From contig NZ_CP136628.1 in NCBI RefSeq assembly GCF_032918005.1, positions 5,937,501-6,001,500 on the forward strand: a DNA stretch of 64,000 nucleotides, in the 5' to 3' direction. This DNA is from Bradyrhizobium sp. NDS-1. GTDB lineage: Bacteria; Pseudomonadota; Alphaproteobacteria; Rhizobiales; Xanthobacteraceae. Each line of letters starts with the position of its first letter. Position 1 is the first letter of the stretch. The position numbers and the translations under genes were made by a program. Shown here in pieces: positions 4,994 through 26,791 of the stretch. The notes beneath the pieces were generated by a model. That model was not told the DNA's origin. It saw only the letters and a program-made list of their open reading frames with translations, and did not search any database.

Positions 4994-5080
4994 GCGCATC
5001 CTCCCGCTGGTTGCGACCAAAGCTATGCTATGCGTATTGTCCTGAAAAGCACTCTGTCAGAGGAAACGGCTCACAAGGTG

Positions 5081-6079
5081 ATGAGAGCACTCGGTGTGAC
5101 AAGGGCACTTGGTCGAACATTGGCGCTCGCAACGGCGCTGGCGCTGACGCTGGCCGCGCCCGGGCGCGCCGCTGATACCATTCGCCTTGCGGTGCAGAAA
5201 ACCGGAACATTCTCCTGGGAGCTGGCTGCGATCCGCGCGAACGGTCTCGACAAGGAAGCGGACCTCTCGCTGGAAGTCTCCGAGCTCGCGAGCACCGAGG
5301 CCGGCAAGATCGCCATGCGCGCAGGCGGCGCCGACATCATCCTGTCGGACTGGCTGTGGGTGTCGCGCGAGCGGGCGCTCGGCGCCAAGCTCACCTTCTA
5401 TCCCTATTCCAGCGCGCTTGGCGCGGTGATGGTCCCAGCCTCGTCGCCGATCAAGTCGCTCGCCGACCTGAAGGGGCGCAAGCTCGCGGTTGCCGGCGGA
5501 GCCATCGACAAGAGCTGGCTGCTGCTCCAGGCGCGCATGAAGCAGGACGGCATCGACCTGAAGACGGAGGCAACTATCGCCTATGGCGCTCCGCCCTTGA
5601 TCGCCGCCAAATCCCTGGACGGCGAGATGGATGCAAGCCTCAATTTCTGGAATTTCTGCGCCCAGCTCGAAGCCAAGGGTTTTAGGCGCCTCGCCGGCAT
5701 CGAGGACATCTTGCCGAAGCTTGGAGCCAAGGGCGCTGTCTCGGCGGTCGGCTATGTCTTTGACGAGCGTTGGGCCGCCAGCCATCGCGAAGCGGTGGCG
5801 CGCTTCATCGCCATGACCCGCAAGGCCAAGCAGCTGCTGGTGAGCTCGGATGCGGCCTGGGACAAGATCGCGCCACTGACAGGCACCAGCGATGCCACCC
5901 TGCTCAAGACCTATCGCGACCGCTATCGCGACGGCATTCCGCGCCGGAGCATCGAGGACGAAGAAAAGGATGCGCGCGTGCTCTACCGCGTGCTGGCCGA
6001 GATCGGCGGCCGCGACCTCGTCGGCCCCGCCGCCGAGCTCGATCCCGGCACCTTCTATCACGCCGTGCCCGGAGACTGA
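5081..6079 (+). CDS. NitT/TauT-type ABC transporter substrate-binding protein
   Basis: Periplasmic binding protein of about 332 aa with a signal peptide ending near APGRAA. Mature features are typical of the NMT1/SsuA/TauA fold: RLAVQKTGTFSWELAA at the N-terminus and SPIKSLADLKGRKLAVAGG mid-protein. An in-frame ATG at 5030 exists, but the ATG at 5081 gives a conventional signal peptide; ribosome-binding sites are weak for both. It is the first gene of a three-gene importer (permease, ATPase) and lies just ahead of the pqqA-lanM-xoxF region. The ligand is unknown; a role in lanthanide or lanthanide-chelator uptake is inferred from position only. Confidence 0.85.
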   Translation: MRALGVTRALGRTLALATALALTLAAPGRAADTIRLAVQKTGTFSWELAAIRANGLDKEADLSLEVSELASTEAGKIAMRAGGADIILSDWLWVSRERALGAKLTFYPYSSALGAVMVPASSPIKSLADLKGRKLAVAGGAIDKSWLLLQARMKQDGIDLKTEATIAYGAPPLIAAKSLDGEMDASLNFWNFCAQLEAKGFRRLAGIEDILPKLGAKGAVSAVGYVFDERWAASHREAVARFIAMTRKAKQLLVSSDAAWDKIAPLTGTSDATLLKTYRDRYRDGIPRRSIEDEEKDARVLYRVLAEIGGRDLVGPAAELDPGTFYHAVPGD

Positions 6080-6080
6080 G

Positions 6081-6818
6081 GTGCTGCGTCTTCTATCGTT
6101 CGCCCTGTTCCTCGTGACCTGGTGGATTGCCGCACTGTTCGTCGGTGGCGCAAAGCTGCCCTCCCCGCCGGCCGTGCTCGAGGTGATGATCGCGGAAGCC
6201 TCATCGGGCGCGCTGTTCCTGCATCTCGGCGCCACGCTGGCGCGGGTCACGCTCGCCTTCGTGCTGGCGATGTCGCTCGGCAGCGCGATCGGCTATCTGA
6301 TGGGACGGGTCAGGCTCGCCGACCGGCTCGGCGATCCCTGGCTGATCCTGCTGCTCAACCTGCCTGCGCTGGTCGTGATCGTGCTGGCCTATATCTGGGC
6401 CGGACTGACCGAGACCGCCGCAATCGCAGCGATCGCCATCAACAAGCTGCCGACGGCGGTCGTCACCTTGCGCGAGGGCACCCGCGCGCTCGACCGCTCG
6501 CTCGACGAGATGGCGAGCGTGTTCGCGATGCCGCGTTGGCGCGCATTCCGCCATGTCGTGTTGCCGCAGCTTGCGCCCTATATCGCCGCCGCGGCCCGCT
6601 CCGGACTGTCGCTGGTGTGGAAGATCGTACTGGTCGCCGAGCTGCTTGGGCGTCCGAACGGCGTCGGCTTCGAGATCGGCGTCGCCTTTCAGCTGTTCGA
6701 CACGCCGCGGCTGCTCGCTTATTCGCTGACATTCGCCGCGGTCGTGCTCGTGATCGAAACCTTGCTGGTGCAGCCGTTCGAAGCCCGCGCAACACGGTGG
6801 CGGCCCCGTGCGGCTTGA
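6081..6818 (+). CDS. ABC transporter permease (NitT/TauT type)
   Basis: Inner-membrane permease of 245 aa with several transmembrane helices and a binding-protein-dependent transport signature. The EAA-like loop lies around LDEMASVFAMPRWRAFRHVV. The GTG start at 6081 is one base after the stop of the binding protein and is preceded by GGAG. It overlaps the ATPase gene by 11 bases, so the three genes are one transcription unit. Confidence 0.88.
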   Translation: MLRLLSFALFLVTWWIAALFVGGAKLPSPPAVLEVMIAEASSGALFLHLGATLARVTLAFVLAMSLGSAIGYLMGRVRLADRLGDPWLILLLNLPALVVIVLAYIWAGLTETAAIAAIAINKLPTAVVTLREGTRALDRSLDEMASVFAMPRWRAFRHVVLPQLAPYIAAAARSGLSLVWKIVLVAELLGRPNGVGFEIGVAFQLFDTPRLLAYSLTFAAVVLVIETLLVQPFEARATRWRPRAA

Positions 6819-7518
6819 GGTCGAAATTACCGGCAAGACGTTCAAAAGTGCCGCCGGCGGGATGCACGAGGTGCTGGCGCCGCTCAAATTCGTGCTTAAC
6901 CCTGGCGAGGTCGGCGTGCTCATTGGCCCCTCGGGCTGCGGCAAGAGCACGATGCTGCGTATCATCCTGGGGCTCGATGGCGATTTCAGGGGCCATGTCG
7001 CCCGTCCACCGCAGGCGCGGATCGGAATGGTGTTCCAGGAGCCGCGACTGTTGCCGTGGCGCTCGGTCGAGCAGAATGTGCGGCTGGCGGCGCCAAACGT
7101 GACCGAGGCAAAGCTGTCGGAGCTTTTCCGAATTCTCGAGCTGGACGCGCACCGCAGCCACTTTCCCGGCGAGTTGTCGCTTGGCCTTGCCCGGCGCGTC
7201 GCGCTCGCCCGCGCCTTTGCAGTCGAGCCCGATCTGCTGGTGCTCGACGAGCCCCTCGCCTCGCTCGACGACGCGCTCGCCGGCCGCTTGCGCGACGAGA
7301 TCGCAACGCTGGTGGCGAGCCGCCCGGTGATGACGCTGCTCGTCACCCACAGTCTCGACGATGCGATCCGGCTCGGCGACCGCCTGTTCTTCTTGTCGCC
7401 GCGCCCCGCGCGCATCGTGCAGGAAGTCCCGATTGCCATTCCGCGCGCGATGCGCAGTGAGGCCGAACTCGGCAGGATCAGGGCGGAGCTCCCAACCTTG
7501 CAGCTTGAATCGAAATGA
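6808..7518 (+). CDS. ABC transporter ATP-binding protein with degenerate signature
   Basis: ATPase of the importer, 236 aa, GTG start. Walker A is GPSGCGKST, the Q-loop is in MVFQEPRLLPW, Walker B is LLVLDEP and the H-loop is TH in LLVTHSLDDA. The signature that is usually LSGGQ/LSGGM reads LSLGL (ELSLGLARRVALARA), so both glycines of the LSGG core are not kept. Otherwise the domain is complete. It probably pairs with the permease encoded immediately upstream. Confidence 0.88.
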   Translation: MRLEVEITGKTFKSAAGGMHEVLAPLKFVLNPGEVGVLIGPSGCGKSTMLRIILGLDGDFRGHVARPPQARIGMVFQEPRLLPWRSVEQNVRLAAPNVTEAKLSELFRILELDAHRSHFPGELSLGLARRVALARAFAVEPDLLVLDEPLASLDDALAGRLRDEIATLVASRPVMTLLVTHSLDDAIRLGDRLFFLSPRPARIVQEVPIAIPRAMRSEAELGRIRAELPTLQLESK

Positions 7519-7564
7519 AAACTCGTGGTCAACTGAAGCAAACGTTGTCGAGGGAGGTTCACCA

Positions 7565-7918
7565 ATGCGGCTTAGGCTGATTGCGATCGGCATCCTCTTG
7601 GTCGCAGTGCCGGGTGCGGCGCTGGCGCAAGCCAAGGGCAAGGGCATCAGGCTCTGGAACCTGACGACGGAAACGATCTCCGGCTTCCAGCTCTCACCCG
7701 CCGGCAAGGCGGACTGGGGCCCGAACCTGTGTTTGAATGACAAGGACAAGGAGGTCGACCACGACGAGCGGCTGCGCATTACCGGCGTCGAGCCGGGCCG
7801 CTACGACGCCAAGGTCAGCTATCCCAGCGCGCGGCAGTGCGTCGTTCGCAACATCGAGATCAGGGCGGACGCAGTGTTCTCGATCGCCGACAAGGACCTG
7901 AAGGACTGCACCAAATAG
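7565..7918 (+). CDS. Small exported protein with an acidic loop, unknown function
   Basis: 117-aa protein with a clear signal peptide (to about residue 22, ALAQA). The mature region has three cysteines and an acidic segment at residues 58-68 (NDKDKEVDHDE) that carries six Asp/Glu in ten residues. It is not a canonical EF-hand because the glycine and spacing are missing. It has a GGGAGG-like ribosome-binding site and follows the ABC ATPase by 46 bp in the same direction, so it is probably in the same operon. A periplasmic metal-related role is conceivable but unproven. Confidence 0.8.
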   Translation: MRLRLIAIGILLVAVPGAALAQAKGKGIRLWNLTTETISGFQLSPAGKADWGPNLCLNDKDKEVDHDERLRITGVEPGRYDAKVSYPSARQCVVRNIEIRADAVFSIADKDLKDCTK

Positions 7919-8341: not shown

Positions 8342-9208
8342 CTAAAAATTCACCCCGAACACCATCCGGGCCTGGTGACGCTCGAAATTGACGAGGTCGA
8401 GATTTGCGGATGAACCGGCCGGACGCCCCCAGGCCTGCATGCTCCAGCTCAGGGTAAGCCGTGAGCGCTCGGATAGCTGGAAATAGGCGGTCGGGCCGAC
8501 GAACAGCGCCTGGCCGGAAAACTCCCCAAGGCCGATGCCTTCATATTGCCGGAAGTAGCGCAGCTCCCCGCCGAGCAGCACATTGGGCCGCAGGCGCACC
8601 AGGCCGGCAAACGCCGCCCCGATCGTCGAGCTCTTCTCGGACACTCCGGCCATCTCGAAGCGCGCCCATTCCGGCTGATAGATCAGGTTGAGGGCGCCGA
8701 TGGCGAAGTTCGGGATGAGCTCGCGGTCGATGGCGAGAGTGAGTTCGGTGCCGTACATCCGCCCTTTCGCACCGCTGGTCTCGTCGATGCGGTCACCATG
8801 GAGCTCGGCGGCGATGGTGAGACCGAACGGCGCGCGCTCGCGGTCGAGCAGGCGATAACGCAGGTCGAGCGAAGCGCCCTGGAAGTTGAGCTGGCGGCGG
8901 TCGTCGATATCGGGGACGCCGGTGATGTCGTGGAAGCTGGCGGTGCCGCCGACTTCGACGCGAAAGTTCGGCAGCGGCACGACCTCGATCTCGAACTCGT
9001 GCTCGAGGGCGCGATATGTGCCGCCCTTGCCGAGGCGGCCAGTCGTCTGGGTCTGGAATTCGCGTTCGCCGGGATTGCCGACATCGGTGCCGATCATGAA
9101 GCCGAAGATGTGCTCGGTATCGAAGCCTTCCTCGGCGCTGACGCATACGGGTAAAAGCGCGACCGTACAGGCAGCAATAGTGCAGAAGCTATTGGCTCTC
9201 GCGCGCAT
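8342..9208 (-). CDS. Putative outer-membrane beta-barrel protein
   Basis: 288 aa with a signal peptide (cleavage near CVSAEE) and alternating hydrophobic/polar strands. It ends in a C-terminal phenylalanine (RMVFGVNF), the usual outer-membrane insertion signal. Start 9208 is the second in-frame ATG; an earlier ATG at 9244 is possible and neither has a textbook ribosome-binding site. It lies 60 bp downstream of pqqA on the same strand, so it is probably co-transcribed with it. It is not a TonB-dependent receptor (too short, no plug). Its cargo is unknown. Confidence 0.7.
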   Translation of the reverse strand: MRARANSFCTIAACTVALLPVCVSAEEGFDTEHIFGFMIGTDVGNPGEREFQTQTTGRLGKGGTYRALEHEFEIEVVPLPNFRVEVGGTASFHDITGVPDIDDRRQLNFQGASLDLRYRLLDRERAPFGLTIAAELHGDRIDETSGAKGRMYGTELTLAIDRELIPNFAIGALNLIYQPEWARFEMAGVSEKSSTIGAAFAGLVRLRPNVLLGGELRYFRQYEGIGLGEFSGQALFVGPTAYFQLSERSRLTLSWSMQAWGRPAGSSANLDLVNFERHQARMVFGVNF

Positions 9209-9268
9209 TCCTGACACTACCACGGCTCCGACGGCGTTTGCCATCGAAGCCGCGGCAGGTCGTCAGTC

Positions 9269-9349
9269 TTACTTGCGCGAAGCGCAGGCGTACATGTTGA
9301 TTTCCATGCCGACCGGCACTTCCACGATCTTCGGAGCTTTCCAAGCCAT
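9269..9349 (-). CDS. pqqA: Coenzyme PQQ precursor peptide PqqA
   Basis: 26-codon gene; the peptide starts MAWKAPKIVEVPVGMEI and ends NMYACASRK. The Glu-x-x-x-Tyr motif (EINMY) is the pair that PqqE cross-links to build PQQ, and the sequence matches alphaproteobacterial PqqA throughout. GGGAG lies eight bases upstream of the ATG. No pqqB, C, D or E is in the window, so this is a solitary copy placed among the quinoprotein genes. Confidence 0.95.
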   Translation of the reverse strand: MAWKAPKIVEVPVGMEINMYACASRK

Positions 9350-9471
9350 TCGGGGTCTCCCAAGGTATTGAGCGCGACATCGCGCGGCGCAAAACCTAGG
9401 GCTGCGTCAATTGCAGTTCAAGCCTCGATTCGGCTGTCGAGCGCGTCTGTGTCGATTCTTCGCGACGGCAT

Positions 9472-9508
9472 TTCTCTCTGGGACAAAGCCAGTTCTCTCT
9501 TGGTCAAA
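9472..9508. promoter_or_regulatory. Two direct repeats upstream of pqqA, 21-bp period
   Basis: TTCTCTCTGGGACAAA (9472-9487) and TTCTCTCTTGGTCAAA (9493-9508) match at 13 of 16 positions and are spaced exactly two helical turns apart. They lie 123-159 bp upstream of pqqA. A near-identical element occurs upstream of xoxF. They look like a tandem binding site for a dimeric regulator. Confidence 0.5.
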
Positions 9509-9585
9509 CACGACCTGCAAGACGCTGCCAAGTGACTGCCTTGTGCGACGCACCGCGTCGAATCGACACCGACGACACTGCGCCG

Positions 9586-9915
9586 TCAGCAGCCCTTGTC
9601 GGCCATCGAGGCGTCCGGCTTCGCACCGTCGGCCCGCTGAGCCGCCGTCGGCTGGCTCTGCATTTGCCGCTGCGCATCTTCGGATGATGCCGGCGTTTCA
9701 CCGCTCGCGCGATTCATCGTGCTGGTCGGCGGATGCTGGCTGCTGTCGCTCGCCGGGCTGGACGAGTGCGACTGCGCCGAGCCTACGGTGACCGGACCAG
9801 AACCGGCATCCTTGTCGGTGCTGGCGCTGCCCGTGTTGCACGGGCCTGCGATGGCAGCGCCGGCGCTCAACATCAGGATCGCGCAGGCGGCAAGAACGGA
9901 ACGTTTCGTGTTCAT
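9586..9915 (-). CDS. Small exported Ser/Gln-rich protein
   Basis: 109 aa with a signal peptide (MNTKRSVLAACAILMLSAGAAIA). The mature part is a low-complexity Ser/Pro/Gln/Asp-rich chain with one cysteine near its N-terminus (GPCNTG) and one as the last residue (DKGC). Start 9915 is set by GAGGAG six bases upstream. It lies downstream of lanM on the same strand with a 140-bp gap. No domain is recognised. Confidence 0.65.
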   Translation of the reverse strand: MNTKRSVLAACAILMLSAGAAIAGPCNTGSASTDKDAGSGPVTVGSAQSHSSSPASDSSQHPPTSTMNRASGETPASSEDAQRQMQSQPTAAQRADGAKPDASMADKGC

Positions 9916-10055
9916 CTGCATCTCCTCTTCTCCCGCCGCGCCGCCCCGGCGCCAGGCAGGACATCGCGAAGAGAACAGGCCGAGCTGCCCGATGTTCCGA
10001 GTTTCGGAGCGGAAATGCTCGCAAAAGCCACCCGCCCCGTCCTGTTCCGTTGCAC

Positions 10056-10448
10056 TCACTGCAACAATCGCAGCAGCGTTCGGCCCGGGCGCGCGTTCAG
10101 CTCCTTCCCATCCAGCGTTCCATCCTTGTCCGGATTGGCCGCATTGAAGCGCTGCTCGACCACCGACAGATATTCGTCGAGCGTCAGCGTCCCATCGCGG
10201 TCGGGATCGGCGGCGGCGAGTTGTTTCGCCGTCAATCGTCCGCGCAATTCGCGCGCGTCAAGCGTGCCATCGCGATCGGGATCGAGCTTTGCGAACAATG
10301 CGGCACCCGCCTTCTTCACCTCGGCAAGATCGAGCGTGCCGTCATTGTCGGTATCGAACAACTTGACCGCGTTGCCGGAGGCCGACCAAGCCGGACCGGA
10401 CAACAATGCAATCGTGAGCGCAAGCGCAATCGAGTGGCGCGAAATCAT
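10056..10448 (-). CDS. lanM: Lanmodulin, periplasmic lanthanide-binding EF-hand protein
   Basis: 130 aa: signal peptide to about residue 23, then four EF-hand loops at residues 32-43, 56-67, 81-92 and 105-116 (DTDNDGTLDLAE, DPDRDGTLDARE, DPDRDGTLTLDE, NPDKDGTLDGKE). Loops 2-4 have proline at position 2 and loop 4 begins with Asn, as in Methylobacterium lanmodulin. The loops are only 12-13 residues apart, which is the lanmodulin hallmark. Differences: loop 1 has Thr at position 2 and loop 3 has Thr instead of Asp at position 9. The start at 10448 has GGGAGG upstream. It is divergent from an ExaF-like dehydrogenase. Confidence 0.93.
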   Translation of the reverse strand: MISRHSIALALTIALLSGPAWSASGNAVKLFDTDNDGTLDLAEVKKAGAALFAKLDPDRDGTLDARELRGRLTAKQLAAADPDRDGTLTLDEYLSVVEQRFNAANPDKDGTLDGKELNARPGRTLLRLLQ

Positions 10449-10778
10449 CAAGTCCTCCCAGACAAAGCCCCCCGGTGCAAGCCGGGGCAGCAACGAGATA
10501 AATCCCCAAGCGGCTCCCGGTTCAAGTCCGAAATGCAACTTGCGCGCGCTGCAACTCGCGGAAACGGAACGCTCGCCCTGACCAGTTCAATCGGAGGTGC
10601 TTCGTGGTGCGGAATTTCCCAGCGTCTCCACGCAAGCGGAGCCGGTTTCCGTGAGGTGACCGACAATCGCATTCAACGATATCGGCACGACATCTGCGAC
10701 TTTCGTATTGACGCGTTTTGGTTTCCGACGGAGATTTGCTTCCGCAGCGTCAAAAGGCGCGCATATTGGGAGGAACGG
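10449..10778. promoter_or_regulatory. Divergent promoter region of lanM and the ExaF-like dehydrogenase
   Basis: 330 bp without a gene. It contains two direct copies of TGCAACT(T/C)GCG 16 bp apart in start position near 10533-10559, which could be a regulator site. No convincing -35/-10 pair was found. The 21-bp-spaced motif seen upstream of pqqA and xoxF was looked for here and not found. Confidence 0.4.
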
Positions 10779-12443
10779 ATGAAACGCTTTGCGATGGCCG
10801 CGAGCCTCGTCATGCTTGCATCGACTTGTGCAAGCGCACAGACCACCGAGCAACTGGTCAAAGGCGCGACCGATACATCGAACGTTCTCAATTACGGGAT
10901 GGGTTACCATCTGCAGCGCTTCTCGACGCTGAACCAGATCAACAAGGACAGCGTCAAGAACCTTGTCCCGATCTGGAATTACTCTTTCAACGACGATCGC
11001 AGCGAGGAATCCCAGCCCATAGTCTATCAGGGCGTGATCTATGTGACCTCGCACAATGCGACCATGGCGGTGGACGCCAAGACCGGCAAGCAGATCTGGA
11101 AGAGCAAGATCGAATATCCCGCCGAGACGCCCCGAATCGTCTGCTGCGGCATCATCAATCGCGGCGTCGCAATCCACGAGGGCAAGTTGTTTCGCACGAC
11201 GCTCGATGCCAACGTGGTTGCGATTGACGCAAAGACAGGCAAGGAGCTGTGGCGTCAGAAGGCCGCCGACATCAAGGAAGGCTATTCGATGACGGTGGCC
11301 CCGCTGGTCGCCGATGGCGTCGTCATCACCGGTGTCTCCGGCGCCGAGTTCGGCACCAGGGGCTTCATCGACGGCTGGGATCCGGCGACAGGCAAGCACC
11401 TGTGGCGCACCCATTCGATCCCGTCACCGGAAGAGCCCGGCGGCGACACCTGGAAGGGCGACACCTGGAAGCTCGGCGGCGGCTCGACCTGGATCACGGG
11501 CTCTTATGACCCCGAGCTGAACACCGTGTATTGGGGCATCGGCAATCCCGGCCCGTTCAATTCAGCGGTGCGCCCGGGCGACAATCTCTACACCTGCTCC
11601 GTGCTGGCGATGGACCCCAAGACCGGCAAGATCAAGTGGCACTACCAGTTCTCACCGAACAATCCGTTCGATTACGATGCGGTCGCCGAGATGGTGCTCG
11701 CGGATGTGAACGTCGAGGGCAAGCCGACCAAGACGCTGATGAATGCCAACCGCAACGGCTTCTTCTACGTGCTCGACCGCACCAACGGCAAGCTGCTGGC
11801 GGCCAACCCTTACGTGAAGGTGAATTGGGCGACCGGCGTCGACATGAAGACGGGCCGTCCGATCGAGACCGACGTCGCCAAGGAGGCGCGCGAGGGCAAG
11901 AAGGTGACGGTCTATCCCTCGATCCTCGGCGGCAAGAACTGGGAGCCGATGTCGTTCAATCCGCAGACCGGCCTCGCTTATGCCAACACGCTCAACTTCG
12001 GCGGCAAGTACAAGGCCGAGCCCGTCACCTTCAAGCAGGGTGAATGGTATCTCGGCATGGACCTGACCGATCCCTGGGAGTTCGGGGACGGACCGCGCGG
12101 TCACCTCAAGGCCATCGACCCGATGACGGGTAAGTCGAAGTGGGAAGCGCCGAGCGACATTCCACGCTTCTCAGGCGTGCTGTCGACCGCGGGCGGCGTT
12201 GTGTTCTCGGGCGCCCTGACCGGGGAGTTCGAGGCCTTCGACGCCGACACCGGCAAGAAGCTCTGGCAGTTCCAGACCGGGTCCGGCATCGAGGGCCAGC
12301 CGGTGACCTGGCAGCAGGACGGCGTGCAGTATGTCGCGGTGACCAGCGGTTATGGCGGCGTCTACTCACTGTTCTCCGGCGACGAGCGGCTTGCCAAAGT
12401 GCCGCCCGGCGGGTCGCTTTGGGTCTTTGCGGTCAAGCAGTAA
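10779..12443 (+). CDS. PQQ-dependent alcohol dehydrogenase, lanthanide type (ExaF-like)
   Basis: 554-aa periplasmic quinoprotein with a signal peptide (CASAQ). The eight-bladed propeller contains repeated tryptophan-docking motifs (DAKTGKxxW). The vicinal cysteines are at 122-123. The catalytic Asp298 is followed by Asp300 (FDYDAV); the second Asp marks lanthanide-dependent members, where calcium enzymes usually have Ala, Ser or Thr. Ribosome-binding site GGGAGG. It is followed by a cytochrome c and a MoxJ-type gene, the usual partners of such enzymes. Substrate may be ethanol, methanol or another alcohol. Confidence 0.9.
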   Translation: MKRFAMAASLVMLASTCASAQTTEQLVKGATDTSNVLNYGMGYHLQRFSTLNQINKDSVKNLVPIWNYSFNDDRSEESQPIVYQGVIYVTSHNATMAVDAKTGKQIWKSKIEYPAETPRIVCCGIINRGVAIHEGKLFRTTLDANVVAIDAKTGKELWRQKAADIKEGYSMTVAPLVADGVVITGVSGAEFGTRGFIDGWDPATGKHLWRTHSIPSPEEPGGDTWKGDTWKLGGGSTWITGSYDPELNTVYWGIGNPGPFNSAVRPGDNLYTCSVLAMDPKTGKIKWHYQFSPNNPFDYDAVAEMVLADVNVEGKPTKTLMNANRNGFFYVLDRTNGKLLAANPYVKVNWATGVDMKTGRPIETDVAKEAREGKKVTVYPSILGGKNWEPMSFNPQTGLAYANTLNFGGKYKAEPVTFKQGEWYLGMDLTDPWEFGDGPRGHLKAIDPMTGKSKWEAPSDIPRFSGVLSTAGGVVFSGALTGEFEAFDADTGKKLWQFQTGSGIEGQPVTWQQDGVQYVAVTSGYGGVYSLFSGDERLAKVPPGGSLWVFAVKQ

Positions 12444-12451
12444 TCCCCGGC

Positions 12452-12811
12452 ATGATGCTGAGAGACATTTTTGACAGGACGGCGGCGACCTTCGCCGCCG
12501 CCCTGGTGCTGACGGTCGCGCTTGCGGCGATCGTTCGTGCCGCCGACGAGCCGACCGGCAATCCCATGCAGGCGCAGATCGACCACGGCAAGTCGACCTA
12601 TGCCGAGAAATGCTCGCACTGCCACGGGCCGAACCTGATGAACTCCGGCACCATCACGCCGGATCTGCGCGCCATCCCCGACGACAGGACGCGCTTCGTC
12701 ACCACGGTAAAGAACGGCAAGAACAACAAGATGCCGCCCTGGGGCGACATCCTCAGCGACGATCAGATCGGGGATCTCTGGGCCTTCATCTCGAGCCGGA
12801 GAAAGCCATGA
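12452..12811 (+). CDS. Small periplasmic c-type cytochrome
   Basis: 119 aa with an N-terminal signal anchor or peptide and one haem-binding CSHCH at about residue 52. A methionine for the sixth ligand is in KMPPWGD. The start could be either of two tandem ATGs (12452 or 12455). It is eight bases after the dehydrogenase, and its stop overlaps the next start (ATGA). It is the likely electron acceptor of the upstream quinoprotein. Confidence 0.88.
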   Translation: MMLRDIFDRTAATFAAALVLTVALAAIVRAADEPTGNPMQAQIDHGKSTYAEKCSHCHGPNLMNSGTITPDLRAIPDDRTRFVTTVKNGKNNKMPPWGDILSDDQIGDLWAFISSRRKP

Positions 12812-13737
12812 GGGGCCGGCATATCGCATGGAGTCTCTCGGCTGTTCTGTCGATGATGGCATCGGTCGCTCTTGCGGCCGACGATCCTCTGAAAATCTGC
12901 CTCGACGAGGACCGGCCGCCGCTCTCGATGCATCAGCGCGACAAGCCGGATGCCGGCTTCGACGTGCTCCTGGCTCAGGCGATCGCGGAGCGGCTCGGAC
13001 GGCCGCTGACGATCCAGTGGTTCGAGAGCAAGCTGGACGAGGATGCGAGCCCACAGCTCGAAGCCAACGCGCTGCTCTCCGATGGGCGCTGCTCGCTCGT
13101 CGGCGGCTATGCGCTGACCCAGGATTCGCTCGTCGTCCCAGGAATGAAGACGGCGCGCTTGCCGGGTTTCGCCGGGGCCAAACGCGACGATCGCCGGCGC
13201 CGCGTCACGCTCGGCGTGCTCGCGCCGAGCCAGCCTTACGTCTATTCGCCGATGACGGTGGTACTCGGGCCGAAGGCAAGCGGCCGCAAGATCGGCGACA
13301 TCGGCGATCTCGCCGGGCTCCGTCTGGTCGTCGAAAGCGGCTCGCTCGGCGACGCCATCCTGATGACCTTCGAGAAGGGGCGGCTGATCGACAGCATCAC
13401 CCATCTCGTCCCCGGCCGCGACGATCTCTTGGGCGCGCTCCAGCGCGGCGACCATGACGCGACACTGATTGATCTCGCGCGCTTCGACGCTCATCGCGCC
13501 GCACACCCCGACAGTACGCTGAAGGCCTCCGGCTATTACTATCCGATCGGCGCCAATCGCGGCTATGTCGGGCTTGCCGGCGATGGCGCACTGATCGACG
13601 CCGTCAACAAGGCGCTGAGCGCCCTCGCGGCCGAGGGCAGGATCGCCGAACTCGGCAGGCAGGCCGGCCTCACCTACCTGCCACCGCGCGAGCCCGCGAT
13701 TCTGGGCGACGTCTGGACGAAGATCATTCAGCGGTGA
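12808..13737 (+). CDS. Quinoprotein dehydrogenase-associated binding protein (MoxJ/XoxJ-like)
   Basis: 309-aa periplasmic protein with a signal peptide (VALAADD). It has the type 2 periplasmic-binding (family 3) fold and begins LKICLDEDRPPLSM, with GFDVLLAQAIAERLG after it. This is the family found next to methanol dehydrogenase genes and thought to help activate the dehydrogenase rather than to feed a transporter. No permease or ATPase follows it, which agrees. It overlaps the cytochrome gene by four bases (ATGA). Confidence 0.85.
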   Translation: MRGRHIAWSLSAVLSMMASVALAADDPLKICLDEDRPPLSMHQRDKPDAGFDVLLAQAIAERLGRPLTIQWFESKLDEDASPQLEANALLSDGRCSLVGGYALTQDSLVVPGMKTARLPGFAGAKRDDRRRRVTLGVLAPSQPYVYSPMTVVLGPKASGRKIGDIGDLAGLRLVVESGSLGDAILMTFEKGRLIDSITHLVPGRDDLLGALQRGDHDATLIDLARFDAHRAAHPDSTLKASGYYYPIGANRGYVGLAGDGALIDAVNKALSALAAEGRIAELGRQAGLTYLPPREPAILGDVWTKIIQR

Positions 13738-13922
13738 GGCTCTCTGGTGCCGGACGCGCAGCAAACACCCTTTTGGCGTTGCGGCGCAGAGCGTGACCCA
13801 TGCGGTATTGCTCGCAACCGAGGCTGCGCTCTAATGGATTCGGGTCCGCGTGCCGCACCCATCCCGTGAATGACGGATGATGCAGCGAATGCGCCAATCT
13901 GTCTCGCCTGAGGCCCGTGGCA

Positions 13923-13937
13923 GCACCAGCCTGGTGC
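13923..13937. promoter_or_regulatory. Perfect palindrome ahead of a binding-protein gene
   Basis: GCACCAGCCTGGTGC is a perfect 7+1+7 inverted repeat 30 bp upstream of the next start codon. It could be an operator or a small RNA hairpin in the leader. Confidence 0.35.
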
Positions 13938-13966
13938 AGTACCCTGCCCAAAACCGGGAGAGAATC

Positions 13967-14968
13967 ATGTCCACAAAAATCGATCGCCGCCACTTCATCG
14001 CCGCCGGAGCCGGCGCATTCGCAATGCCTTTCATCTCGCGCAGCGTCTCTGCGCAAGCTGCATCACAAGGCACATGGCCGGCGCGGCAGATTCGCATGAT
14101 TTGCAGCTATCCCGCCGGCGGGCAGACCGACCTGCTCGCGCGCGCCTACGGCGAATTCATCTCCAAGCAGGTCGGCAAGCCTGTGGTCGTCGAGAACAAG
14201 CCGGGCGCCTCCGGCGCGATCGGCACGGCGGAGGTCGCCCGCGCCGAGCCCGACGGCCACACCATCCTGTGCTCAATCTCGACCACCTACATCATGAACC
14301 GGGTGGTGATGAAGAATCCCGGCTACGAGATGGACAAGGACTTGACGCTCGTCAGCGTCATTCCGGGCGCCGGCCTGTTGCTGGTGGCGAACCCGAAGAC
14401 CGGGGTCAAGACGCTGGAGGATTTCGTCGCATTCGCCCGCAAGAGCGGCAGGGTGAACTTCGGGACCTACAGCGCGGGCTCGGCCCCGCACATGACGATC
14501 AACGAACTCAACAAGCAGTACGGCCTCAACATCGAGCCGGTCCATTACCGCGGCGAGGCTCCGATGTGGACGGGGATGCTCGAGGGCACGCTCGATGCCG
14601 CGATGGGAAGCTACACCGCAGCACAGTCGGTGCTGCAAAGCGACCGCGGCACCGTGTTCGCGGTGCATTCGAAGAAGGTCAACGCGATCCCTGCCATCAA
14701 GACCCTCCCGGAGCAGGGCGCCTCCTCGAAATTCTTCACCGTGAGCGGCTTTTCGGGCTGGGCCTTGCCCAAGGCAACGCCGCAGCCGATCGTCGACCGC
14801 CTGGCGGAGCTCTGCGTCGCGGCCAACAACGATCCGAAAGTGAAGGAGGTTCTCACGACCTTCGTGCTCGAGCCCGCGATCGGCTTCAAGGAGACCAACG
14901 AACTGTATCAGCGCGAACTGCCGATCTGGATCGAGAGCGCAAAGTCGCTCGGCCTCGAGCCGGCCTGA
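13967..14968 (+). CDS. Tripartite tricarboxylate transporter (Bug-family) substrate-binding protein
   Basis: 333 aa with a twin-arginine signal (DRRHFIAAGAGAFAMP). Family hallmarks are RMICSYPAGGQTDLLAR, VVENKPGASGAIG and VARAEPDGHTIL. It is a periplasmic binder of an organic anion. Ribosome-binding site GGGAG. The membrane subunits TctA/TctB are not nearby, so it is an orphan Bug protein, which is common in this type of genome. It is followed by a possible terminator. Confidence 0.92.
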   Translation: MSTKIDRRHFIAAGAGAFAMPFISRSVSAQAASQGTWPARQIRMICSYPAGGQTDLLARAYGEFISKQVGKPVVVENKPGASGAIGTAEVARAEPDGHTILCSISTTYIMNRVVMKNPGYEMDKDLTLVSVIPGAGLLLVANPKTGVKTLEDFVAFARKSGRVNFGTYSAGSAPHMTINELNKQYGLNIEPVHYRGEAPMWTGMLEGTLDAAMGSYTAAQSVLQSDRGTVFAVHSKKVNAIPAIKTLPEQGASSKFFTVSGFSGWALPKATPQPIVDRLAELCVAANNDPKVKEVLTTFVLEPAIGFKETNELYQRELPIWIESAKSLGLEPA

Positions 14969-15018
14969 GTCTCGGGGCGAAGCGTAACGCGCCGCGCCGG
15001 CGCCCTTCGAGGTCGCGA

Positions 15019-15054
15019 CTTCCGACCAAAAGCCTAGTGTCGGAAGCGCGTTTT
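15019..15054 (+). terminator. Hairpin followed by a short T run
   Basis: CTTCCGAC (15019-15026) pairs with GTCGGAAG (15039-15046) over a 12-base loop, followed by CGCG and TTTT. It lies 50 bp after the Bug-protein gene. The T run is short, so termination strength is uncertain. Confidence 0.45.
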
Positions 15055-15097
15055 CCCGCTATGATTGCACACCTCTGCGGACAGGAAGGCCGATCGC

Positions 15098-15523
15098 ATG
15101 ACACCGGATGCAGTCGCCGTCGCCGTTATGATCATCCTGCTGTTTCCGATGAGCTATTTCACGCTGGCCTCGCCCGCTTTCCTGCTGGTGAAGCTCGATA
15201 TCCAGCCCGTCGCCCAGTTGCTGCGCGGAATGTTCAACGCCCATTTTCTGGTGATGCGCGTCGCCGGCATCATTGGAACCGTGGCGCTCCTCCTCGACGG
15301 CCGCCTGCTTGCCGCGCTGGGCGTTGGCATGATCGCTGCCGTGGCGATCTGGGGACGCCGCTGGTTCATGCAAAGAGTGGACGACCAGCTCAGCGCAAGG
15401 GAGGCCGGGGATGCCGATGCGCCGCGTCGGTTGCGCCGGCTGCATTGGAGCGGAATGCTGGGGAACGCGGTGGCGCTCGTCGCCCTCGTGGCCGGCATTC
15501 CCTATGTCGCCTCGTCCGCGTGA
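15098..15523 (+). CDS. Integral membrane protein, unknown function
   Basis: 141 aa with about four hydrophobic segments: residues 5-26, about 45-58, 61-76 and 115-136. A charged Arg-rich stretch (DAPRRLRRLHW) precedes the last helix. AGGAAGG lies nine bases upstream of ATG 15098; an earlier in-frame ATG at 15065 lacks such a site. It is convergent with the AraC regulator gene. No family is recognised. Confidence 0.65.
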   Translation: MTPDAVAVAVMIILLFPMSYFTLASPAFLLVKLDIQPVAQLLRGMFNAHFLVMRVAGIIGTVALLLDGRLLAALGVGMIAAVAIWGRRWFMQRVDDQLSAREAGDADAPRRLRRLHWSGMLGNAVALVALVAGIPYVASSA

Positions 15524-15584
15524 AACGTCGCCGTCCGCGCGACCGGCCCGACGATTGTCGCGTGGAGCATTCGCTGGAAAGCGG

Positions 15585-16553
15585 CTAGTGTTCGCCCGAA
15601 CTCGCCGTGCCCTGCTGCGCCTTGTGGATCGAGGACGGCACCACGCCAAAGTATTTCCTGAACACCCGGCTGAAATGCGATGAGCTGGAGAAGCCCCAGG
15701 AGAACGCGACGTCGGTGATGGTCTTGCCGGCGTGAGCCTCGAGTTCCTGGCGGCAGTTCTGCAAGCGCGCTTGCCAGATGTAGTCGCTCACCGTGGTGCC
15801 ACGCTCCGAGAACAGCATGTGCAGATAGCGCTTGGAGCAGCCGAGCTCGGCGGAGATCTGGTCGATGCACAGATCCGGGTCGCGCAGATGCTCGCGGATG
15901 AAGAATTGCGCGCGCACATACATCGCTTCGGGGCCGACCCGGTCGAACATCGTGTCCGCTTCGCGCAACGGCAGCAGTAGCAGGTCGATCAGCGAATCAG
16001 CGACGCCGACCGCGCTGTTCGCCGACAGCTTGGCCGCCTCGTCGAACGTGGCATGGACGAACTCGTGTGCGATCCGCCCCGTGCCCGTCTTCGACGTCAG
16101 CTTGCAGGCGGGCATCCGCTGCGACGGGAATCCGCGGTCGCGCAGCAGCGCCTTCGGCACGATCACCACGTCGTGACGCGTGAAGGCAGGGCTGATGATC
16201 GAATGCGGGCAGGAGACGTCATAGGCGATGATATCGCCGGGATTGATTTCGATGTGGCGGCCTTCCTGCTCGAAATAGGACACGCCATAGGTCTGGAAGT
16301 GGATCTTGATGTAGGGGTGTTCATTGGCCTTGGCGCGTGCCAGCGTGTGCGCGATGCGATGCTGGCTCACCTCGATCTGGCAGAGCTTCAGGCGCGAGAC
16401 GCTCGTGTAGTCGATGCGGCCTTCGAGCGAGGACGCCTCCAGCGGGTCGACGTCGAAATGCCCACACAGGCTCGTCAGCCCGTCGATCCAGCTCTGGATC
16501 TGGCGCTTCGGCGTCATACCGGTCGTCGAGAGCGTGTGAATGGTGTCGGACAT
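15585..16553 (-). CDS. AraC/XylS-family transcriptional regulator
   Basis: 322 aa. The N-terminal part (to about residue 190) is a cupin-like ligand-binding domain with PYIKIHFQTYG and GDIIAYD. The C-terminal part holds two helix-turn-helix motifs, with DQISAELGCSKRYLHMLF and TDVAFSWGFSSSSHFSRVFRK; the second matches the AraC signature. Start 16553 has GGA four bases upstream; an ATG at 16565 is also possible. It is divergent from xoxF across a 514-bp gap and is a candidate regulator of xoxF. Confidence 0.9.
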   Translation of the reverse strand: MSDTIHTLSTTGMTPKRQIQSWIDGLTSLCGHFDVDPLEASSLEGRIDYTSVSRLKLCQIEVSQHRIAHTLARAKANEHPYIKIHFQTYGVSYFEQEGRHIEINPGDIIAYDVSCPHSIISPAFTRHDVVIVPKALLRDRGFPSQRMPACKLTSKTGTGRIAHEFVHATFDEAAKLSANSAVGVADSLIDLLLLPLREADTMFDRVGPEAMYVRAQFFIREHLRDPDLCIDQISAELGCSKRYLHMLFSERGTTVSDYIWQARLQNCRQELEAHAGKTITDVAFSWGFSSSSHFSRVFRKYFGVVPSSIHKAQQGTASSGEH

Positions 16554-17067
16554 TAATCCAGCCACTGGTTTGATCCGGAGATTCGACGCGAATCGCGACC
16601 AGCGCTGCCGGAGCCCTCAGCCATGATTGCGAGACGTTTACCTCGAATTTGAGCGGTCTATTGGCACGAGCGCCATCGTTCCATTGCCACCCTAGAAACG
16701 TAATCCTCCGCCTTAGTTGCAGCGCCGTCAAGGGGAACCTGATCGCTGGAAGCGGCCTGGATGCCGCGCGGAAGCCGCTGAATTCGCTACTGCAAAATCA
16801 AAATCTTTCCCTCCGTGCGCTGTCGAGCAAACCGGCTTCTCTCTTGGGCAAGTTTCCCGATTGCGAAGTCGTTAGGGATTGCGGCAGGAACAACAAGAAC
16901 GGGCCGCTCCTGCACGTGGACCCGTGGCTCTCATCAGGAGGAGGAAACAGCACAGCATCGTTTCTGGTCCCAATCGTGACCGCCCTGCACGAGCAGACGC
17001 CGGACGAGAAGCCCGGCGATTGAGCATTGCTTCGGAAACAATAAACGAGACCAACGGAGGAATAACT
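16554..17067. promoter_or_regulatory. Regulatory region between the AraC gene and xoxF
   Basis: 514 bp without a convincing gene. It holds TTCTCTCTTGGGCAAG (16837-16852), which matches the repeat upstream of pqqA. Exactly 21 bp before it, TGCGCTGTCGAGCAAA (16816-16831) keeps 10 of the 16 positions of that repeat. The tandem element is about 220 bp ahead of xoxF. The xoxF ribosome-binding site (GGAGG) closes the region. Confidence 0.5.
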
Positions 17068-18876
17068 ATGCGCAAGGTGCTACTGGCGACCTTTCTTGGC
17101 TCAGCGGCGGCTCTCGCCGTCGGGAGCGCCTCAGCCAATGACGAGCTGATCAAGATGTCGCAGAACCCGAAAGACTGGGTAATGCCGGCGGGCGACTACG
17201 CCAACACCCGCTATTCCAAGCTCAACCAGATCACCGCACAGAATGTAGGCAAGCTCCAGGTTGCCTGGACCTTCTCCACCGGCGTGCTGCGCGGCCACGA
17301 AGGCGGTCCGCTGATCATCGGCAACATCATGTACGTCCATACGCCGTTCCCGAACAAGGTCTACGCTCTTGACCTTTCGCAGGAGAACAAGATCATCTGG
17401 AAGTACGAGCCGAAGCAGGATCCGAACGTCATTCCGGTGATGTGCTGCGACACCGTTAACCGTGGCCTGGCCTACGGCGACGGCAAGATCTTCCTGCATC
17501 AGGCCGACACCACCCTCGTCGCGCTCGATGCCAAGACTGGTCAGGTTGCATGGTCCGCCAAGAACGGCGATCCCGGCAAAGGCGAGACCGGCACATCGGC
17601 AGCGCTGGTCGTAAAGGACAAGGTGCTGGTCGGCATCTCCGGCGGCGAGTTCGGCGTTCAGGCCCATATGACCGCCTACGACATCAAGACCGGCAAGCAG
17701 GTCTGGCGCGGATACTCGGGAGGCCCGGATGACCAGATCCTGGTCGACCCCGAGAAGACCACTGCGCTCGGTAAGCCCATCGGCAAGGACTCGAGCCTCA
17801 AGACCTGGCAAGGCGATCAGTGGAAGATCGGCGGCGGCGCCACCTGGGGCTGGATCTCCTACGATCCGGAGCTGAACCTTGTCTATTACGGATCGGGCAA
17901 TCCCTCGACCTGGAATCCCAAGCAGCGTCCTGGTGACAACAAATGGTCAATGACGATCTTCGCGCGCAATCCGGACACCGGAATGGCCAAGTGGGTCTAC
18001 CAGATGACGCCTCATGACGAATGGGACTATGACGGCGTCAACGAAATGATCCTCTCGGATCAGTCGATCAACGGCCAGCCGCGCAAGCTGCTGACGCATT
18101 TCGACCGAAACGGCCTCGCCTACACCATGGACCGCGCGACGGGCGAACTGCTGGTCGCCGAAAAGTACGATCCGAAGGTGAACTGGACCTCTGGCGTCGA
18201 CATGGACAAGAACTCCCCGACCTACGGCCGTCCGAAGGTGGTCACCCAGTACTCGACGGAAGCTGGCGGAGAGGACAAGAACACGAAGGGCATCTGCCCG
18301 GCCGCGCTCGGCACCAAGGACGAGCAGCCGGCGGCCTACTCGCCGGACACGCAGCTGTTCTACGTTCCGACCAACCACGTCTGCATGGACTACGAGCCGT
18401 TCAAGGTGAGCTACACCGCGGGCCAGCCCTATGTGGGTGCGACGCTCTCGATGTATCCGCCGCAGGGTGAAACCCACATGGGCAACTTCATCGCCTGGGA
18501 CGGCAAGACCGGCAAGATCGTCTGGTCGAACAAGGAGCAGTTCTCGGTCTGGTCGGGTGCGCTCGCTACCGCCGGTGGCGTGGTGTTCTACGGCACGCTC
18601 GAAGGCTACCTGAAGGCGGTCGACGCCAAGACCGGCAAGGAGCTCTACAAGTTCAAGACTCCCTCCGGCATCATCGGCAACGTCACGACCTATGAGAACG
18701 GCGGCAAGCAGTATGTCGCAGTACTCTCCGGCGTCGGCGGCTGGGCCGGCATCGGTCTGGCGGCGGGTCTGACCGATCCGACCGCAGGTCTCGGCGCAGT
18801 CGGTGGCTATGCGGCTCTCAGCAACTACACGGCACTCGGCGGTACGCTGACCGTGTTCTCGCTGCCGAACAACTAG
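17068..18876 (+). CDS. xoxF: Lanthanide-dependent methanol dehydrogenase XoxF
   Basis: 602-aa periplasmic quinoprotein with a signal peptide (SASAND). It oxidises methanol using PQQ and a lanthanide. Evidence: vicinal cysteines 126-127 ([10 protein letters not shown]), catalytic Asp320 with the additional Asp322 (EWDYDGVNE) that coordinates the lanthanide, GGGATWGW, and closing propeller blades ending in TLTVFSLP. Length and sequence fit the XoxF5 group. GGAGG lies seven bases upstream of the start. It is followed by xoxG, flhA and gfa in one direction. Confidence 0.97.
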
Positions 18877-18893
18877 GCCCCATCAGCATCGCT

Positions 18894-18922
18894 CCGGCGC
18901 GTGGATTAACTCCACGCGCCGG
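18894..18922 (+). promoter_or_regulatory. Perfect 12-bp hairpin between xoxF and xoxG
   Basis: CCGGCGCGTGGA pairs with TCCACGCGCCGG over a five-base loop (TTAAC). No T run follows, so it is not a classical terminator. It may stabilise the xoxF message or reduce read-through into xoxG, which would favour abundant dehydrogenase. Confidence 0.65.
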
Positions 18923-18947
18923 CTCGTCCCCCCGGGCTCCTTCGAGG

Positions 18948-19478
18948 ATGAATCTCTTGCGTAAAATCTGCTCTGTCATTGCTGCGACGATTCTGGTTGC
19001 GTCCGGAGGATTTGCGGTCGCGGACGGTCCGGGCGACCCGACCGCCGTGAAGAAGGAAGACGACGGAAAGTGGCTCGATAAGGAAGGAACACCGACCTAC
19101 AAGATTTCGGCCGACGGCACCGTGGACTGGTTCACCTATTCCGGATACCGCCGCTATCACTCCGACTGCCATGTCTGCCATGGCCCCGACGGCATGGGCT
19201 CGACCTACGCGCCGGCGCTCAAGGATTCCGTCAAGTCGATGAGCTATGGCGACTTCATCGGCGTAATCGCCTCCGGTCGCAAGAACATCTCGACCGCGCA
19301 GGAGAACGTCATGCCTGCCTTCGGCGACAACCCGAACGTCGCCTGCTACATGGACGATCTCTACGTCTATCTGCGCGCCCGCTCCACCGAAGCTTGGGGC
19401 CGGCAGCGTCCCGCCAAGAAGGAAGACAAGACACCGGAGTACACCAAGGCGGAAGACGCCTGCATGGGCAATAAGTGA
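18948..19478 (+). CDS. xoxG: Cytochrome c XoxG, electron acceptor of XoxF
   Basis: 176-aa periplasmic cytochrome with a signal peptide and one haem site CHVCH at residues 75-79 (SDCHVCHGPDGMG). Methionine ligand is probably in NVMPAFGDNP. Its position directly after xoxF and its size fit the cytochrome cL-like XoxG family. The annotated ATG abuts its GAGG site, so an in-frame TTG at 18957 with better spacing is an alternative start; both keep the signal peptide. Confidence 0.92.
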   Translation: MNLLRKICSVIAATILVASGGFAVADGPGDPTAVKKEDDGKWLDKEGTPTYKISADGTVDWFTYSGYRRYHSDCHVCHGPDGMGSTYAPALKDSVKSMSYGDFIGVIASGRKNISTAQENVMPAFGDNPNVACYMDDLYVYLRARSTEAWGRQRPAKKEDKTPEYTKAEDACMGNK

Positions 19479-19538
19479 ACGTTGCCGGGATTGCCGAGAC
19501 GACGTCCTGGCGTCCTATGAGAATTTGAGGAGCTTACG

Positions 19539-25066: not shown

Positions 25067-26791
25067 CTATTTCTTCAGCGCGAATACCCAGACGACGCCG
25101 CCCTGCGGCACGTTGGCCTCGATACCGATATTGTTGGTCACGAGTGCATCCTGGATGCGCTGTGCGTCCACGCCCCAACCCGACTGGATCGCGATGTACT
25201 GCGTGCCGTCGATCTCATAGGACACCGGCATGCCAACGATGCCGGAGTTGGTCTTCTGTTCCCACAGAAGCTCGCCGGTCTTGGCGTGGAAGGCTCGGAA
25301 GTAGCGGTCGTTGGTGCCGCCGACGAAGACGAGATCGCCCGCCGTCGCCGTGACCGATCCGAACAGCTGCGACTTGGGGAAGTTGTGCTGCCAGACCTTC
25401 TTGCCCGTGACGGGGTCCCAGGCCTGGAGCTCGCCGAAATGATCCGCGCCCGGCCTCGTCGTCAGGCCGATGTCTTCCGGCTTGGTGCCAAGCCAGAGCT
25501 CGCCCGGCTTGAGCGGGAGCTTCTCGCCGGTGAACCCGCCGCAAAAGTTCTCATTGGCCGGCACGTAGACGAGGCCGGTCCTCTGGCTGTAGGCGGCTGA
25601 CGGCCAGTCCTTGCCGCCCCACAGCGACGGACAGAACTCGACGCGCTTGCCGATCACCGGCTTGTGCGCGGGATCGACGATCGGCTTGCCGCTCTCGTCG
25701 ATGCCCTTCCAGACGTCGGTGTAGACGAACGGCCAGCCGGCGACATAGTTGATCTTGGTCGGCGTCCGCTCGAGCACCCAGAAGATCGCGTCGCGTCCCG
25801 GATGGACCAGGCTCTTGATGTTGCGACCGTTGCGTTGCAGATCAATCAGCATCGGCGCATCGACCTCGTCCCAATCCCAGGAATCGTTCTGGTGGTATTG
25901 GAAATAGGTCTTGATCTTGCCGCTGTCGGGATCGAGCGCGAGCACCGATGCAGTATAGAGATTGTCGCCGGGATGGGTTTCGCCGGGCCATGGCGCCGCG
26001 TTGCCGATGCCCCAATAGATCGTCTTGGTCTCCTTGTCGTAATTGCCGGTCATCCAGGCCGACCCGCCGCCGTTCTTCCAGTCGTCGCCCTGCCAGGTAT
26101 CGTGACCGGGCTCGCCTTCGCCGGGGATGGTGTAGGTCCGCCAAAGCTCCTTGCCGCTCTTTGCATCATAAGCCACGATATAGCCGCGTACGCCGAACTC
26201 ACCGCCGGAGCCACCGACGATGACCTTGCCATCGACGATCAACGGCATCAGGGTCAAGTACTGACCCTTCCTGTAGTCCTGCACCTTGGTGTCCCACACC
26301 ACCTTGCCGGTCTTGGCATCGAGCGCGACCACGTGGTCGTCCGTGGTGGCGAGGTAAAGCTTGTCTTCCCACAGGCCGACGCCCCGATTGGTCGGATGCA
26401 GCTGGAACAGATCGTCAGGGAGCTGCCGCTTGTAGCGCCAGTATTCGTCGCCGGTCTTCGCGTTCAGCGCGATCACCTGTCCCATCGGAGTCGTCACGAA
26501 CATCGCGCCATTGTTGACGATCGGTGGCGCCTGATGGCCTTCGACCACACCGGTGGAAAAAGTCCAGACCGGCGTGAGGTTCTTCACGTTCGAGGTGTTG
26601 ATCTGGTCGAGCGGGCTGTAGCCCTGCCCGTCATAGGTACGCCGATAGAGCATCCAGTTGTTTGGCTCCGGATTTTCCAGGCGCTGCGCCGAGACCGGAG
26701 AATAATTCTCGATCGGGCCGCACACGGCGGCGGTCGAGGCAAGACACGTAAAGGCGACGAAGCCGGACAGTAACCATTGCTTCCTGGTCAT
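25067..26791 (-). CDS. Quinoprotein alcohol dehydrogenase without vicinal cysteines
   Basis: 574 aa with a signal peptide and the full propeller (repeated LDAKTGKxVW motifs). It clearly belongs to the PQQ methanol/ethanol dehydrogenase family. Unlike the two other dehydrogenases here, the place of the Cys-Cys pair reads DDLFQLHPTNRG (about residues 127-136). The catalytic region is SWDWDEVD, with Asp306 and Asp308, so the lanthanide-type second Asp is kept. There is no neighbouring cytochrome c or MoxJ gene; a Rieske protein gene lies upstream on the same strand. Substrate unknown. Confidence 0.9.
   Translation of the reverse strand: MTRKQWLLSGFVAFTCLASTAAVCGPIENYSPVSAQRLENPEPNNWMLYRRTYDGQGYSPLDQINTSNVKNLTPVWTFSTGVVEGHQAPPIVNNGAMFVTTPMGQVIALNAKTGDEYWRYKRQLPDDLFQLHPTNRGVGLWEDKLYLATTDDHVVALDAKTGKVVWDTKVQDYRKGQYLTLMPLIVDGKVIVGGSGGEFGVRGYIVAYDAKSGKELWRTYTIPGEGEPGHDTWQGDDWKNGGGSAWMTGNYDKETKTIYWGIGNAAPWPGETHPGDNLYTASVLALDPDSGKIKTYFQYHQNDSWDWDEVDAPMLIDLQRNGRNIKSLVHPGRDAIFWVLERTPTKINYVAGWPFVYTDVWKGIDESGKPIVDPAHKPVIGKRVEFCPSLWGGKDWPSAAYSQRTGLVYVPANENFCGGFTGEKLPLKPGELWLGTKPEDIGLTTRPGADHFGELQAWDPVTGKKVWQHNFPKSQLFGSVTATAGDLVFVGGTNDRYFRAFHAKTGELLWEQKTNSGIVGMPVSYEIDGTQYIAIQSGWGVDAQRIQDALVTNNIGIEANVPQGGVVWVFALKK

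Follow-up and report, generated by a model that had tools for sequence, protein, structure and literature searches.

A Bradyrhizobium lanmodulin gene divergent from a gene for a PedH-like alcohol dehydrogenase

What is the small EF-hand protein that Bradyrhizobium sp. NDS-1 encodes close to several quinoprotein dehydrogenases, and which of these enzymes might it serve? The question arose from a 64,000-nucleotide stretch of the genome (contig NZ_CP136628.1, positions 5,937,501 to 6,001,500), referred to here as the window, and from an earlier note that had described a lanmodulin gene at positions 10056 to 10448. These coordinates were exact, and translation of the open reading frame placed the gene, lanM, on the minus strand (Table 1). 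The product is a true lanmodulin (LanM) of the known family. With a probability of about 0.86, it is a Bradyrhizobium lanmodulin that is exported, folds on lanthanides, and buffers them or carries them to pyrroloquinoline quinone (PQQ) dehydrogenases, a reading that draws on the family, the fold of a predicted model, the gene neighborhood, and co-occurrence.

In a profile search, the lanM product matched the NCBIfam LanM equivalog NF053806 at E 3.4e-51, with 172.8 bits against a cut-off of 135. Among sequences of solved structures, it scored 110 bits with Mex-LanM, 81 with Hans-LanM, and 28 with the best natural calcium EF-hand protein. The predicted model matched the three-helix LanM fold, and its structural matches to lanmodulins were much better than those to calcium proteins. 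Lanmodulins are recognized by four EF-hand motifs in fewer than 200 residues, 12 to 13 residues between neighboring EF-hands, and Pro at position 2 (Pro2) of at least one loop; here, four motifs were found in 130 residues, spaced by 12, 13, and 12 residues, with Pro2 in loops 2, 3, and 4. The arrangement of calmodulin and calerythrin, with EF-hands approximately 25 residues apart in standard pairs, was absent. The earlier note had recognized the lanmodulin pattern from this length, spacing, and Pro2 distribution and had proposed a profile search and a structural model as checks; both bore it out, and the best match to calmodulin- or calerythrin-like proteins that it had named beforehand as refuting was not seen. 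In the homologue search, 3064 of 3571 candidate proteins had E ≤0.001, and the best 120 of these enter one of the loop counts below. A search of the whole genome, a single 7.65-Mb contig, revealed no second LanM at E ≤0.001.

The remaining loop features read by the earlier note were likewise present: loop 1 has Thr2, loop 3 has Thr9, and loop 4 has Asn1. Position 9 is Asp in EF1, Asp in EF2, and Thr in EF3, so that the Glu9 in EF1 to EF3 of Hans-type dimeric lanmodulins was not found. Residues 8 to 25 had a predicted local distance difference test score of <50 in the model. A plus-strand frame at 10050-12443 was rejected as a TTG extension into the dehydrogenase gene, its translation across 10056-10448 being unrelated.

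The nearest named relative of the product, at 99% identity, was from Bradyrhizobium diazoefficiens SZCCT0449. The 80 nearest named loci shared 72 to 99% identity, and 78 were titled Bradyrhizobium, the other two being Frankia sp. RB7 and a Bradyrhizobiaceae bacterium. The record titled Frankia sp. RB7 (L163) holds a Bradyrhizobium-like lanM (86% identity) and is probably a mislabelled or mixed assembly. Against 79 of the 80 loci (one was missed by the pattern), the median ratio of nonsynonymous to synonymous substitution was 0.14, as computed position by position from an anchor on EF3 with no gap handling. Since LanM exceeded the family cut-off in 200 of 265 genus genomes, lanM is ordinary for Bradyrhizobium. 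In an order-level sample, LanM was present in 29 of 397 genomes, 10 of them Bradyrhizobium by our own count. Second or relocated LanM copies were observed within the genus at L070, L087, L089, and L096.

To place lanM in context, 39 regions from 37 genus genomes were used; they were not a random draw but were selected among the listed matches, long contigs being preferred. A PedH-like gene (91 to 100% identity) was divergent from lanM in 36 of the 39; at L087 and L089 lanM adjoins another quinoprotein gene (38 to 39%), and at L096 there was none in the region. Other frequent neighbors were genes for an SsuA-like binding protein, a cytochrome, and a second binding protein (35 regions each), together with homologues of the window genes at 8342-9244 (29 regions) and 9586-9915 (9 regions). 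The PedH-like pairing was found in 0 of 21 regions outside the genus, two of which had an XoxF-like gene (45 to 51%) nearby. A lut-like cluster lies at 1.846 to 1.857 Mb, approximately 4 Mb from lanM, and contains no lanM. It comprises a TonB receptor, a binding protein, ABC (ATP-binding cassette) transporter genes, and a beta-propeller, with 40 to 68% identity to the lanM-flanking genes of L103, whose names LutH and LutA we infer from their position beside lanM. In Methylorubrum extorquens AM1, lanM is located inside the lut cluster (PMC7391723; this and the other papers cited are drawn on in extract), and lut homologues have been published for B. diazoefficiens 110 (PMC12628762).

Co-occurrence was scored over the 265 genus genomes, with LanM present in 201 (one match at E 3.4e-34 in addition to the 200 genomes above the cut-off). 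Weak LanM matches in 16 were scored as absent, and the PedH-like enzyme and XoxF were scored as present at a best E of ≤1e-200. LanM and the PedH-like enzyme were both found in 185 genomes, LanM only in 16, the PedH-like enzyme only in 12, and neither in 52 (phi coefficient, 0.72). For LanM and XoxF, the corresponding numbers were 199, 2, 48, and 16 (phi, 0.41). Restricting the first comparison to the 247 genomes with XoxF gave 183 with both, 16 with LanM only, 11 with the PedH-like enzyme only, and 37 with neither (phi, 0.67).

Several points weigh against the main reading given at the outset. Shared ancestry and physical linkage both confound the co-occurrence; with related genomes and two adjacent genes, the Fisher values are not honest probabilities. 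The 2018 lanmodulin entry may have been among the data on which the structure predictor was trained. Twelve genomes keep the PedH-like gene without LanM, and 48 have XoxF without it. The four of these 12 PedH-like loci with a listed place were inspected; none held LanM, and all four retained the genes for the PedH-like enzyme, XoxF, the cytochrome, an AraC regulator, and the second binding protein. Each also kept the 8342-9244 homologue, which in one of them is truncated where the contig ends. The transporter was present in three, the contig ending first in the fourth, and the 9586-9915 homologue in one. Moreover, deletion of lanM in Methylobacterium aquaticum 22A was harmless to growth on methanol (PMC9260416). 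It therefore seems that lanM is dispensable: since the four inspected LanM-less loci keep their dehydrogenases, 48 XoxF genomes lack LanM, and the 22A deletion was harmless, delivery by LanM would not be essential to these enzymes. At L232 (approximately 5722-5787), where lanM is missing, a 22-residue EF4-like stretch was observed (E 0.21); as an EF4 remnant it is suggestive only.

By analogy with characterized lanmodulins, export, lanthanide binding, a disorder-to-order switch, and buffering or carrying may be expected of the protein. Lanthanides would enter through the TonB/ABC lut-like uptake system, whose genes lie in another part of the genome, and LanM would be exported to the periplasm. 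There it would probably be largely unfolded until lanthanide ions fill the EF loops, whereupon it would adopt the compact three-helix LanM fold. Most likely, periplasmic LanM would buffer lanthanides and carry them from the uptake system to the adjacent PQQ alcohol dehydrogenases, above all to the PedH-like enzyme. As in strain 22A, it would be useful rather than essential.

The loop deviations were examined across relatives. In the genus, EF3 position 9 was Thr in 39 of 39 aligned loci of the best-scoring matches, Thr in 79 and Ser in 1 of the 80 nearest named loci, and Thr in 39 and Ser in 1 of 40 proteins from the 39 chosen regions; these samples partly overlap, favor high scorers, and barely cover low-scoring copies. 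Among the best 120 of the 3064 homologues plus the query, the count was Thr 99 and Ser 12 (n = 111; 10 of 121 rows were dropped, the four loops not being found by pattern). The 40 LanM-like proteins from outside the genus had Asp (23), Glu (11), Thr (3), Gly (2), or Asn (1); by our own count, the 25 over the family cut-off were Asp 22, Thr 2, and Asn 1, and the 15 below it Glu 11, Gly 2, Asp 1, and Thr 1. The position-9 codons of 79 of the 80 named loci were ACG (70), ACC (5), ACT (2), ACA (1), and the Ser codon TCG (1). When every column entered the tree, the three Thr rows from outside were placed next to the genus (96/86); without the position-9 column, all 41 genus rows fell on one side of a branch (96/99), and Thr/Ser required two changes. 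Both trees come from a short alignment with many unresolved forks, and the three outside Thr rows are long-branched. EF1 Thr2 and EF4 Asn1 vary inside the genus, other members having Pro2 and Asp1. Thus, the deviations in loops 1 and 3 pointed out by the earlier note exist but are not peculiar to the lanM of the window: a uniqueness claim was rejected, as EF3 Thr9 or Ser9 is genus-wide in the samples and EF1 Thr2 occurs in M. aquaticum 22A.

Relatives of the product are labelled "calcium-binding protein" in databases and generic EF-hand Pfam models match it, as they would an ordinary calcium EF-hand protein of the calmodulin or calerythrin type; with its loop spacing, three Pro2 loops, passing of the LanM equivalog model, and fold comparison, that identity is extremely improbable and was rejected. 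A genuine lanmodulin might instead act in the periplasm as a sponge that keeps free lanthanide low, or as a sensor that reports how much is present, without carrying it to enzymes. Such a function would suit the loss of LanM from loci that keep their dehydrogenases (all four inspected, of 12) and the 22A deletion mutant, which outgrew the wild type somewhat (PMC9260416). However, lanM diverges from the gene of one specific dehydrogenase in 36 of 39 regions and tracks the PedH-like enzyme more closely than XoxF, which suggests a link to enzyme supply, and we regard a sponge or sensor as doubtful.

Compatible with a buffer or carrier is a refinement in which EF3, lacking Asp9, binds lanthanides more weakly or with another size preference, so that the third site is retuned genus-wide. 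According to published work, the Asp9 side chain of Mex-LanM forms a hydrogen bond to solvent on the metal, whereas in EF3 of Hans-LanM Glu9 is itself a ligand and moves between the La and Dy forms; EF3 Thr9 could therefore plausibly alter affinity or size preference. Thr or Ser in every aligned genus LanM, against Asp or Glu in 34 of 40 proteins outside the genus, favors such retuning, and the slight codon variation is consistent with a residue being kept. On the other side, Thr9 is found in working calcium EF-hands, and engineered position-9 variants of Mex-LanM reportedly keep high affinity. The refinement is accordingly put forward as tentative, and metal selectivity different from the archetype is a guess from the loop sequences. 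Replacing the prolines of Mex-LanM lowered selectivity over calcium while lanthanide affinity was kept (PMC12603986). That Bradyrhizobium has a distinct lanmodulin subclass, defined by EF3 Thr/Ser9 and PedH-type pairing, with a third site retuned to be weaker or size-selective so as to supply an ethanol-type dehydrogenase that depends on lanthanides, and not chiefly XoxF, we consider unlikely.

Around lanM, the quinoprotein dehydrogenases that the earlier note had mentioned were identified by structure-sequence match as three genes (Table 1). The nearest solved structure to the product of the divergent gene was quinoprotein ethanol dehydrogenase (6zcv, 6zcw), which we take to be PedH. All three have a D-x-D motif, as in these lanthanide enzymes, compared with D-F-S in 1flg, and only three genes in the genome passed the TIGR03075 cut-off, all inside the window. 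In an alignment of 36 intergenic sequences including that of the window, a block of approximately 80 bases at 10700-10778 was strongly conserved and is perhaps a promoter or operator of the PedH-like gene. No known RNA element exceeded its gathering score within 9000-20000. A lanthanide role for the SsuABC-like transporter is a guess. Beyond the transporter, a small exported-looking protein is encoded at 7562-7918, for which family searches gave no match; the exported-looking proteins of 8342-9244 and 9586-9915 had no match in Pfam or NCBIfam.

Table 1. Features at and around lanM in window coordinates
Feature	Coordinates	Strand	Remarks
lanM, lanmodulin	10056..10448	-	130 residues plus stop; open reading frame, profile, structure-sequence comparison, fold
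Signal-peptide-like leader	10383..10448	-	Residues 1-22, read by eye; basic start, hydrophobic stretch, ...PAWSA
Shine-Dalgarno-like GGAGG	10454..10458	-	By eye; 5 nt ahead of the lanM ATG
EF1 loop DTDNDGTLDLAE	10320..10355	-	Residues 32-43; Thr2
EF2 loop DPDRDGTLDARE	10248..10283	-	Residues 56-67; Pro2
EF3 loop DPDRDGTLTLDE	10173..10208	-	Residues 81-92; Pro2; Thr9 is codon 10182-10184
EF4 loop NPDKDGTLDGKE	10101..10136	-	Residues 105-116; Pro2, Asn1
Divergent intergenic region	10449..10778	.	Most conserved block just before the PedH-like gene
PedH-like PQQ alcohol dehydrogenase	10779..12443	+	D-Y-D, lanthanide-type motif; diverges from lanM
Small c-type cytochrome	12452..12811	+	Family profiles
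XoxF methanol dehydrogenase	17068..18876	+	Nearest XoxF structure 6oc5; D-Y-D
Methanol-metabolism c-type cytochrome	18948..19478	+	TIGR03874
Third PQQ dehydrogenase	25067..26791	-	Nearest 6zcv; D-W-D motif
SsuABC-like ABC transporter (binding protein, permease, ATPase)	5030..7518	+	Frequent lanM neighbor
Exported-looking protein	8342..9244	-	Between transporter and lanM in 29/39 genus regions

Searches confined to open-licence papers gave no report of a Bradyrhizobium lanM beside pedH/exaF, of its EF3 Thr9, or of largely kept loci from which lanM is missing; in the closest paper, the terms lanM, EF-hand, and calcium-binding are absent from the main text (PMC12628762). The new points are modest: EF3 Thr/Ser9 throughout the genus samples, the frequent PedH-like pairing, and genomes without lanM beside largely kept loci. 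Lanmodulins serve rare-earth separation, and the two best-studied members do not share the same residue at position 9, a position involved in binding the metal; the natural EF3 Thr/Ser9 set offers ready-made variants. The gene pair, together with LanM-less genomes that keep the dehydrogenases, makes the purpose of lanmodulin addressable in plant-associated bacteria, a matter that published deletions have left undecided.

Among known lanmodulins, Mex-LanM (Methylorubrum extorquens AM1; 6mi5, 8fns) shares 53 to 55% identity with the window LanM over the mature part, together with spacing, fold, and EF4 Asn1, but has Pro2 in all four loops and Asp9 in EF3. The Mex-LanM gene belongs to the lut cluster (PMC7391723), whereas the window lanM stands beside a PedH-like gene. 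Hans-LanM (Hansschlegelia quercus; 8dq2, 8fnr) has the same fold, spacing, and family at 37 to 42% identity in structural alignments; it forms a lanthanide-dependent dimer and has Glu9 in EF1 to EF3, in contrast to Asp9, Asp9, and Thr9 here. Other Bradyrhizobium lanmodulins resemble that of the window in EF3 Thr/Ser9 and usually in a divergent PedH-like gene, although some differ in EF1 Pro2 and EF4 Asp1. The LanM of M. aquaticum 22A likewise has EF1 Thr2 and a gene away from lut but differs in EF2 Lys2 and in its gene neighbors, and, despite EF1 Thr2, it changes conformation on La3+ (PMC9260416).
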